This document shows positions 59,058-62,400 of a stretch of DNA of 62,400 nucleotides, in pieces. Location of the stretch: contig JABABV010000004.1 of assembly GCA_014238055.1 (NCBI GenBank), positions 1 through 62,400 on the forward strand. Reading direction: 5' to 3'. A model generated the notes under the pieces. It worked only from the letters and a program-made list of their open reading frames with translations, ran no database searches and had not been told where the DNA came from. The translations under genes and the position numbers were made by a program. The first letter of the stretch is position 1; each line of letters starts with the position of its first letter. The DNA comes from Mycoplasmatales bacterium (GTDB lineage: Bacteria > Bacillota_I > Bacilli_A > Mycoplasmatales > JABABV01).

Positions 59058-59897
59058 ATGAAAAGATGAAGTAATCGAAAAATTGCAGTTGTCGGCTTAT
59101 TCATTTCTATAGGAATAGTTTTAGTAATTTTAGGTAATGCTTTTGTAACTATACCTTCTTTTAAAACTGCTCTGGCTGGGGTTCCTGTAAAAATAACAGG
59201 ATTTTTATTAGGACCTTTAGCTGGTGGAGTTAGTGGTGTAATAGTTGATTTATTATCATTGCTATACAGACCAAGTTTTTATTTCCCTGGTTATACATTA
59301 GATATGATTATGGTTGGAGTAATACCAGGATTAGTATTTATTGTCCAAAGAAGATTTAATCGTAAAATAGCTAAATCAGAATTAAAGTTTAAAAGATATA
59401 ATAAAGGTATGTTATGAATGTTAATTATATCTATACTTATGGTTATTGCTATTGCCACAATATTTATATCTTTAATTCCAGATGATTTTTTCCATGTTAA
59501 AGTCACTCCTAAAGATAAAACAACGAGCACATCACAATTGATAACAAATAAATGAATATATTTAATATTGATAGATTCACAAGCACTTATCTCCCTAATA
59601 GTTATTTTGTGTTTAAAATTTTATTTCAAAAAAAATAAATTTAACGATATTCTCCCAATTATTGTATTTTGTTTTTTTATTGAATATTATTTAATTTTCT
59701 CAACACCTTTATGAGATCAATTTACTATCGGGATTCCGTATTCATTTGGAGTTTCATTTAGAATTACATTCGCTAGTCTTAAGATGTGATTCAATGTTGC
59801 TGTTATGTATTTTGTCTGAAAAGTAATCAATCCTTTGATTAGAATTGATGACATCGAAGAAAACAATGTAGTTACCGGAATCGAAACAGAAAAATAA
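59058..59897 (+). CDS. ECF transporter S component, folate (FolT)-like
   Basis: 279 residues, about six helices with a large cytoplasmic loop (RRFNRKIAKSELKFKRYNK). VKITGFLLGPLAGGVSGVIV, followed by DLLS, is the S-component motif; its glycine-rich G-P-x-x-G-G forms the vitamin-binding helix. A long loop between helices 4 and 5 (DDFFHVKVTPKDKTTS) is unusual. It needs the shared EcfA/A'/T module, not in the window. Position before folC suggests folate. UGA-Trp codons throughout. Confidence 0.75.
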
Positions 59898-59939
59898 TTT
59901 TTATTAATTACTAAAAATTATGCTAAAATATTATTGAAT

Positions 59940-60042
59940 TATATTAGAGCCGCGTAAAATTGATGTTTTTAAATATGGGAGTATAAATTTAAAAACGAAT
60001 TAATTAATTTTAATTATCAATTTATGCTCATCCACTAATATA
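59940..60042 (+). ncRNA. Pseudoknotted leader RNA of folC; candidate THF riboswitch
   Basis: Four helices can form by exact pairing. P1: TATATTAG (59940-59947) with CTAATATA (60035-60042). P2: AAATTGAT (59957-59964) with ATCAATTT (60016-60023). P3: GTTTTTAAAT (59965-59974) with ATTTAAAAAC (59987-59996). A pseudoknot joins the P3 loop ATGGGAGTATAA to the P2/P1 joint ATGCTCATCCA (GAGTAT with ATGCTC, or TGG-GAG with CTC-CCA across a 2-base bulge). Loop to J2/1 pairing and the GCGT-x-A, ATGGGA and CATCC islands match the layout of the class I tetrahydrofolate riboswitch. Placement before folC supports that. Ligand binding is inferred. Confidence 0.6.
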
Positions 60043-60069
60043 TTTAATACAATAAATAATATTGTTTTT

Positions 60070-60104
60070 AAAAATCTCCTACTTTTAGAATTAGGAGATT
60101 TTTT
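60070..60104 (+). terminator. Terminator-like hairpin holding the folC Shine-Dalgarno
   Basis: AAAAATCTCCTA (60070-60081) pairs perfectly with 60092-60103 around a 10-base loop; the T-run ends at the folC ATG. AGGAG (60093-60097), the only ribosome-binding site for folC, lies in the 3' arm. It can thus stop transcription or block initiation. Confidence 0.75.
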
Positions 60105-61265
60105 ATGTATATAAATAACTATGATAAAAATGTTAATTTTTTATTAGAATTAGCTAATCGAAAATTAACATTTAATGTTGATAACGAAACTAAAAAAAAT
60201 TTATGATTAAAATGTTTAATTGAATTAAATAATCCTCAAGATAAAATAAAAGTTATTCAAGTAGTTGGAACTAACGGAAAAGGTTCGACAACGATGTATT
60301 TAAATTGAATATTAAAACAAAAATTTAAAAAGATCGGAACTTTTACTTCGCCAGCTACGATGACTTTTTACGATCGTATTCAAATAAATAATATTGCTAT
60401 TAGTGATCAAAATGTTGATAATTATTTAAAAATAATAAAACCACTCATAAATAAATATAAATTATCTTTTTTTCAAGTTTGAACATTAATGGGATTATTA
60501 CATTTTGTTGATTGTAAAGTAGATATAGCTATTATTGAAGCAGGCATAGGTGGTAAATGAGATTCGACAAATATTTTTTTAGATAAAAATCAATTAGCAG
60601 TTGCGATAACTTCGATAAGTCTAGATCACCAAAACGTATTAGGTAATACACTTTTAGAAATTGCTCATCAAAAAGCAGCAATAACAAAAGCTTCAACTCC
60701 TATTTTTGCTGCCGAAGATTTAACGCGATTTAAAAAAGAATTTTTAAATTTTAGTAATGAAGTTATTTTTGTAAGAACAATTAAATCAAATTTAGCAATT
60801 CCTAAATATCAAGATAGTAATTTGAGCATCGCCTTAGCTATAGCTAAAAATGTTTTTAATATTTCTGATATTGATTTAAATAAAATACCTGAAAACATCA
60901 TTTTTTATCGCTTTAGTACAGTTTTAGATAAACCGTCAATAGTTATTGATGGGGCGCATAACGATGAAGCGTTATTAAAGAATATTGCACATATTAAAAA
61001 AACAAACAAAGATTATATCGTTATTGTTGGTTTTTCTGCAAATAAAAATATTGAGACTATGAAGAAAACGTTGAAAGATAATTTTGAAACAATTTATTAT
61101 GTTAACTTTCAATATAAAAATTCACACCATTTCGATAATAAAATCGATTATAAAATATTGATTTTGAAATTAATTAAAGATAATAAAAATATATTAATTA
61201 TTGGTTCGCTCTATTTTGCTAGTGAAGTTTATAATTGAGGGAAGATAAATGATGTTTTTAAATAG
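60105..61265 (+). CDS. folC: Folylpolyglutamate synthase
   Basis: 386 residues, Mur-ligase fold. P-loop VVGTNGKGSTTM, TFTSPATMTFYDRIQIN (folate site), IIEAGIGGKWDSTN (variant of the usual G-GRLDATN), SLDHQNVLGNT and VIDGAHNDEAL. It adds glutamates to reduced folate, trapping it. FolP or a DHFS partner is not seen, so its use is probably salvage rather than synthesis. It starts directly after the leader hairpin. Its end overlaps the next gene by 17 bases. Confidence 0.93.
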
Positions 61266-61872
61266 TTTAATTTGAAGCGATCATTTATTAATGATAACTA
61301 ATATAATCGCAGTTTTATTAATCTTAGTTGTTGGAATTATAGTTTTTAGTAAAGAAAGTTGAAAAAATATAACTAATAGAGACATCGCTACGATAAGTCT
61401 TTTAGTTGCATTAGCAATTATTTTAAATGGATTTTTTAGTTCGATATCATTAGCCGGCTATGTAAAAATTAGATTAGGTGATGTTGTAGTTTTCTATATG
61501 GGTTATCGCTGTAAATATATTTTAGGATATACTGGTTCAATAATAAGTGATTTATTGAGAATATTAATATTTCCAATCGCAGGAATTCATTTAGGATTTA
61601 CTTTAAATTCTTGTTTATTTAGTTTAGCTGGATCGATAAGTTATCAATTTAACACTAAAAAATTTTTCTATTTTATTGTCAGTTTTTTAATTATATATAT
61701 TTTAGATTCTTTTGTTTTAAATATTATATGATTAGTTTCAATGGGTTGTATTCCTTGAGGTGAAGTTGCTATTTATAGCGCTTATATAAATAGAATAATC
61801 GAATTAGCATGAGCTTTACCGATATATATAGGACTTCTATTACTTTTATATAAAGTAGATAAATTAATATAA
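61249..61872 (+). CDS. ECF transporter S component, second folate-type
   Basis: 207 residues with about six helices. After an N-terminal anchor (IIAVLLILVVGIIVF) come ISLLVALAIILNGFFSS, the core GDVVVFYMGYRCKYILGYTG and SIISDLLRILIFP, matching the FolT/BioY-type S fold with a G-x-x-x-D-L motif. It overlaps folC, so both share the leader RNA. With the gene at 59058 the locus has two S components around folC; they may be two folate forms or different vitamins. Confidence 0.7.
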
Positions 61873-61882
61873 TTCATTTCAA

Positions 61883-61911
61883 TTGACATTTTTGCCTTTT
61901 TGAAATAAAAT
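61883..61911 (+). promoter_or_regulatory. Strong promoter upstream of pyrG
   Basis: TTGACA (61883-61888) and TAAAAT (61906-61911) with a 17-base spacer, the best -35/-10 match in the window. The ~130-base leader to the ATG contains GGCGG and long T-runs near 61990-62000, possibly an attenuator. Confidence 0.7.
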
Positions 61912-62037
61912 ATTTATAGAATTAGAAAATAAAATAAGAAAACTTCAATTATTATTTTTATAAAACGAATTTAAATAAAGTAATGATTTGGCGGTTTTTT
62001 TTATTATTTTTATAACTAATTAAAGAAAACGAGGTAA

Positions 62038-62400
<363 letters not shown>

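Follow-up and report, generated by a model that had tools for sequence, protein, structure and literature searches.

The closest described systems to the leader analysed here are the tetrahydrofolate (THF) riboswitches. In the THF-I class (Rfam RF01831), loop L3 faces the joining strand J2/1, and the ligand is contacted at a pseudoknot site (U7, U35 and U42) and at a junction site (U25 and C53) (PMC9881143); in published work reviewed there, regulation requires the pseudoknot site alone. THF-II riboswitches (the folE motif) are described in Gram-negative bacteria and consist of two helices and an internal loop, with neither a three-way junction nor a long-range pseudoknot (PMC9881143). They have in common with our leader the folate-related genes, and they hide the Shine-Dalgarno sequence on ligand binding (PMC9881143), as is proposed below for the leader; no Rfam match to THF-II was found in the leader. 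On the sequence comparisons described below, the leader is most likely a new, far-drifted variant of THF-I that would work like a THF-I riboswitch turning folC-folT2 off.

The folC locus and the predicted fold of its leader

The DNA analysed (the window, 62.4 kb in all) comes from a TGA-reading Mollicute with a genome sequence of 845 kb; no second genome of its family was present in the set that we searched. An earlier note on this DNA had proposed a THF riboswitch ahead of folC, and folC, together with two folT genes beside it, was identified by NCBIfam models, each of which exceeded its cut-off; the genes and a putative promoter element are listed here.

59058-59897, forward strand: folT1, the upstream neighbour, a folate-family ECF S component (TIGR04518, 3.6e-17)
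59921-59929, forward strand: putative extended -10 element TGCTAAAAT, with a start expected at about 59936 (consensus match by eye)
60105-61265, forward strand: folC (TIGR01499, E 1.1e-72)
61249-61872, forward strand: folT2, a folate-family ECF transporter S component (TIGR04518, 1e-16)

A gap of 207 bases that contains the leader separates folT1 from folC, and folT2 follows, which places the leader upstream of folC-folT2, as expected of an RNA class found upstream of folT, folC or folE. A folate importer fits this organism, because DHFR was detected in the window's genome and DHPS, which was looked for there as well, was not. In the region 59058-61872, folC thus lies between two ECF S components of the folate family, and the arrangement folT-folC-folT is found in further families of the order as well (G003, G014, G024, G030, G035, G045 and G050), where no folC leader was seen wherever this was readable. 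From the predicted extended -10 element, transcription would begin at about 59936, directly ahead of P1 (59940); the promoter scan of the region did not list this candidate (59921-59929). The region's best sigma-70-type match was TTGACA-17-TAAAAT at 61883-61911, in the gap (61880-62043) before a CTP-synthase-like reading frame.

All of the stems, loop pairs and the hairpin that had been described earlier were recovered in the sequence where they had been placed. The elements of the fold that we favour for the aptamer are as follows.

59940-59947, forward strand: 5' strand of P1, TATATTAG, 8 bp with 60035-60042 (pair probabilities 0.8-1.0; fits the THF-I P1)
59948-59951, forward strand: J1/2, AGCC, where THF-I has AGUA; the third position is C (THF-I model alignment)
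59952-59964, forward strand: 5' strand of P2, GCGTAAAATTGAT, GCGTAAA(A)TTGAT, with one bulge (fold)
59965-59974, forward strand: 5' strand of P3, GTTTTTAAAT, 10 bp with 59987-59996 (sequence and fold)
59975-59986, forward strand: L3, ATGGGAGTATAA (THF-I model alignment)
59987-59996, forward strand: 3' strand of P3, ATTTAAAAAC (sequence and fold)
59997-59999, forward strand: J3/4, GAA, which with the AC just before it forms the conserved THF-I ACGAA (alignment)
59998-60015, forward strand: P4 hairpin, 6 bp in the minimum-energy fold (fold; aligned to THF-I P4)
60016-60027, forward strand: 3' strand of P2, ATCAATTTATGC (fold)
60028-60034, forward strand: J2/1, TCATCCA, where THF-I has GCRTCCG; its UCC is the proposed partner of the L3 GGA (alignment)
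60035-60042, forward strand: 3' strand of P1, CTAATATA (sequence and fold)

The minimum-energy fold and the model alignment both gave P1, P2, P3 and P4 with a P2/P3/P4 three-way junction, and the stretch earlier described as a 19-base linker proved to fold as the fourth helix, P4. The 8-bp P2 proposed before does join complementary strands (59957-59964, AAATTGAT, with 60016-60023, ATCAATTT), but the favoured P2 is longer, with 12 pairs and one bulge (59952-59964 with 60016-60027), and more stable (-15.8 kcal/mol vs -11.3 kcal/mol, both computed without P4). Likewise, the six-pair pseudoknot (with one G-U) suggested between GAGTAT at 59979-59984 and ATGCTC at 60024-60029 is complementary in its letters, but it is excluded by the favoured P2, which uses the ATGC at 60024-60027; as this pairing, though possible, competes with a better P2, we rejected it. 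The pseudoknot here is probably instead the short GGA:UCC pairing of THF-I. The letters of L3 AUGGGA and of the J2/1 UCC stand at the aligned positions, in a single sequence and for pairs that hardly vary. The whole leader folded at -33.7 kcal/mol, compared with -21.6 +/- 3.2 kcal/mol for its shuffles (z -3.8; 0 of 200 shuffles as stable), and the aptamer part alone had a weaker excess stability (z -2.3; 7 of 200 shuffles).

Covariance-model searches for THF-I relatives

Of the three outcomes that the earlier note named as refuting its proposal, one, the lack of an Rfam match at relaxed thresholds, was observed: RF01831 gave no match to the 261 leader bases even at an E of 10, and it was found neither in the window and the rest of its genome nor in 148 further genomes from the order; the leader does not reach the gathering score of 36 bits. 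The same family matched in 119 of 395 genomes of the class. Other Rfam families produced two chance-level matches on the leader, both on the terminator hairpin. Loop-to-joint pseudoknots occur in riboswitch classes other than THF-I, which would allow a riboswitch of some other class, or a leader of similar outline that binds a protein, to be mistaken for this one, but as no other family matched beyond those two hits we consider such an origin very improbable.

We built a covariance model (R1) from 42 THF-I RNAs of the class (alignment A1), with the window sequence left out; RNAalifold on this alignment returned the known THF-I layout, with compensatory change in 23 of its 28 pairs. When R1 was run unfiltered on both strands of the window, the best match was the leader (59938-60044), at 18.4 bits and an E of 0.017 calibrated on a short run, followed by a match at 12.7 bits. 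In the 5.4-kb folate region the E-value of the leader was 0.0015. For the window search, scaling to the 261-base leader gives an expectation of about 1e-4. This match is telling because the top match of the window falls on a leader that had been flagged for other reasons, and the claim of a THF-I relative was thereby upheld in one part, the window's best match to a model of bona fide THF-I RNAs, but not in the other, since RF01831 matches at no threshold tried. In the controls, which were folate loci of the order's other genomes with a total of 89.5 kb, the best R1 match reached 14.7 bits and lay inside a gene, folC at L022, and over 198 genomes there was one match of 19.4 bits in coding sequence, within an NAD synthetase-like reading frame in G007. 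Both were dismissed as chance. With the P2-core columns removed (model R2) the leader still ranked first, at 16.5 bits and an E of 0.15, with a weaker separation from the next match at 14.7 bits.

These scores bear on the possibility that the leader is an ordinary A/T-rich one with a constitutive terminator/Shine-Dalgarno hairpin, and that its likeness to THF-I is due to chance, aided by easy A/T folding and by the prior selection of this leader. Such a leader would account for a modest R1 score that includes a 12.7-bit composition correction, for the silence of RF01831, for the similarly high chance match in another genome, for the poorer separation by R2 and for the lack of a recognisable THF-I-type switching strand. 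However, it would not lead us to expect that the window's top-scoring match sits exactly on the folC-folT leader, that the junction lengths and the L3 and J2/1 words match, or that the platform, which is outside the model, matches too, and we regard it as unlikely. Descent of the leader from THF-I is, on these sequence comparisons, likely though not proven.

Further cases of this kind were sought in several ways. A model that includes the window (R3) scored the leader at 35.5 bits, which is no evidence because of that inclusion, and over 218 genomes it found no other convincing case. A DNA pattern of the L3, ACGAA and J2/1 words had 28 matches in 84,980 genomes, none supported by the model; the class-wide word pattern gave mostly chance matches, yet it led to real THF-I. 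Close relatives sought by protein in genome contigs were not found. There was no comparative set of folC leaders, because in the relatives, where starts were readable on the strand shown, folC abuts the preceding gene and leaves no space for a leader.

Conserved columns and the ligand site

The leader shares with THF-I the arrangement of P1 to P4 with L3 facing J2/1, a J1/2 of 4 nt and a J2/1 of 7 nt, the L3 AUGGGA and ACGAA words, CAUCC in J2/1, GU/AC at the base of P3, the folate transport and polyglutamylation genes, and a Shine-Dalgarno hairpin with T between it and the start codon. Its L3 reads AUGGGAGU, where THF-I has AUGGGA(n)GU, and a canonical THF-I RNA (L154) carries the identical word ATGGGAGTATA at L3. 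Conservation among the THF-I rows reaches 90% or more in 35 columns, and the leader agrees at 24 of these; 25 of the 28 model pairs are standard pairs in the leader, mostly A-U, a count that is biased towards structure because the alignment was fitted to structure. In contrast to THF-I, the helices are almost all A-U (P3 entirely except for its first G-C pair, with the basal GU/AC kept), P1 is UUAG/CUAA rather than ACAG/CUGU, J1/2 is AGCC rather than AGUA, and J2/1 is UCAUCCA rather than GCRUCCG. The leader also lacks the P2 core GCGU/GCGG and the J2/3 AA; of the conserved J2/3-P2 core, GCGUUAAGUG with GCGG, it keeps the GU/AC pairs and one G-C, and it differs at columns 24, 27, 29, 30, 33, 84 and 88. 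Its score is below any Rfam threshold, and it is not filed under RF01831 because it falls short of the score threshold and departs from several conserved positions.

THF-I derivatives that are likewise weak in RF01831 exist in the same class, as P1-less variants (G254, G289, G208, G430, G277 and G224), but these show the opposite pattern, keeping GCGUUAAGUG/GACGAA/GCGG and seeming to lack the usual P1 and J1/2. Six weak RF01831 matches (L116, L117, L121, L125, L127 and L131, in G254, G289, G295, G430, G224 and G277) retain GCGUUAAGUG, GACGAA and GCGG but seem to lack the usual P1 and J1/2. Their L3 words containing GGG face words containing CCC on the 3' side of P2, which suggests a subtype of THF-I that has no P1. 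In five other THF-I relatives (L132, L133, L134, L137 and L140, in G356, G392, G397, G427 and G212) the J1/2 U, the U7 position, is changed to A, mostly with an altered L3 too, and their sequences make a changed ligand preference possible.

In order to locate the ligand-contacting residues, we numbered the Streptococcus mutans aptamer by our own count, in which we take U7 to be the J1/2 U, U35 and U42 to lie in L3, U25 to be the U of AAGU and C53 to be the C of ACGAA. The leader has equivalents of U35, U42, U25 and C53, and a C at the position of U7. As U7 is one of the ligand contacts of the pseudoknot site (PMC9881143), its replacement, together with the loss of the three-way-junction core and of the anti-sequestor, could point to a descendant of THF-I with an altered or decayed ligand site, one that prefers another pterin or is a non-switching relic. 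However, the four other ligand-site residues are kept and P1 to P4 are intact despite strong A/T drift, which argues for selection, and we find this alternative quite unlikely. A more specific version of THF-I descent, which we put forward tentatively, is a lineage-specific derivative that lost the junction core, kept only the pseudoknot ligand site, changed U7 to C and gained a new L3/P3 switching strand; such an RNA would be a naturally occurring THF riboswitch with a single ligand site, and its pterin preference might be altered.

Expression platform and proposed regulation

Two further features lie between the aptamer and the folC start codon.

60062-60081, forward strand: candidate switching strand UUGUUUUUAAA-AAU-CUCCUA, whose complement is L3 together with the 3' strand of P3 (59976-59998; duplex -14.0 kcal/mol)
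60070-60103, forward strand: terminator-like hairpin of 12 bp in which the Shine-Dalgarno of folC, AGGAG (60093-60097), is sequestered, with a T-run at 60099-60104 (-11.6 kcal/mol)

The hairpin is as the earlier note had described it, pairing 60070-60081 with 60092-60103, with the AGGAG in its 3' arm and a T-run that touches the ATG at 60105, and its reading as a terminator/Shine-Dalgarno hairpin agrees with the usual THF-I platform in the class. There, a hairpin such as GGATCTC...GAGGAGGTC is followed by a T-run and then by ATG; at least four T separate the Shine-Dalgarno from the start in 55 of 68 THF-I leaders, the Shine-Dalgarno lies within a hairpin in nearly all leaders folded, and the downstream gene was folT, above cut-off, in all five cases checked. 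The window has this same platform, a likeness that counts separately because the platform lies outside the covariance model.

The switching strand differs. In eight relatives from the class, J2/1-P1' can also pair with the 5' arm of the hairpin and the bases just before it (-9.0 to -11.2 kcal/mol), which would be the obvious way for them to switch. The window lacks this usual anti-sequestor, with only -2.1 kcal/mol for J2/1-P1' and the 5' arm. Here, a 9-base copy of the P3 5' strand, GTTTTTAAA (60064-60072), stands directly ahead of the hairpin's CUCCUA, and L3 plus the P3 3' strand can therefore pair there. With the whole aptamer this pairing has -15.2 kcal/mol, a value reached by 12-21 of 1000 shuffles, and the resulting fold, thermodynamically disfavoured, falls short of the default one in stability by about 8-10 kcal/mol. 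Pairing of L3 and the P3 3' strand with 60062-60081 is, in this modelling, a candidate switching step only.

We think it probable that the leader is a strongly A/T-drifted THF-I descendant that would fold, bind a reduced folate and turn folC-folT2 off. Computation gave the fold, the agreement with the THF-I model, the folate genes around the leader and the platform design that it has in common with the class, and for the ligand, the direction of control and the switching step we infer the following. Transcription would start just ahead of P1, and the RNA would adopt P1, P2, P3 and P4 and dock L3 on J2/1, with a reduced folate bound beside this pseudoknot. In the ligand-bound state the downstream hairpin would form, end transcription at the T-run and hide the folC Shine-Dalgarno, and folate polyglutamylation and uptake would be turned down. 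In the ligand-free state an alternative pairing would have to open the hairpin, for which L3 plus the P3 3' strand with 60062-60081 is the best candidate.

As the leader appears to keep most of the pseudoknot-site half of THF-I and to have lost much of the junction-site half, it offers a way to ask, in a natural RNA, which of the THF-I ligand sites matters. It also suggests that such control RNAs can persist in reduced genomes unseen by standard RNA-family searches, and that surveys based on Rfam may show no THF riboswitches in TGA-reading Mollicutes for reasons of detection.
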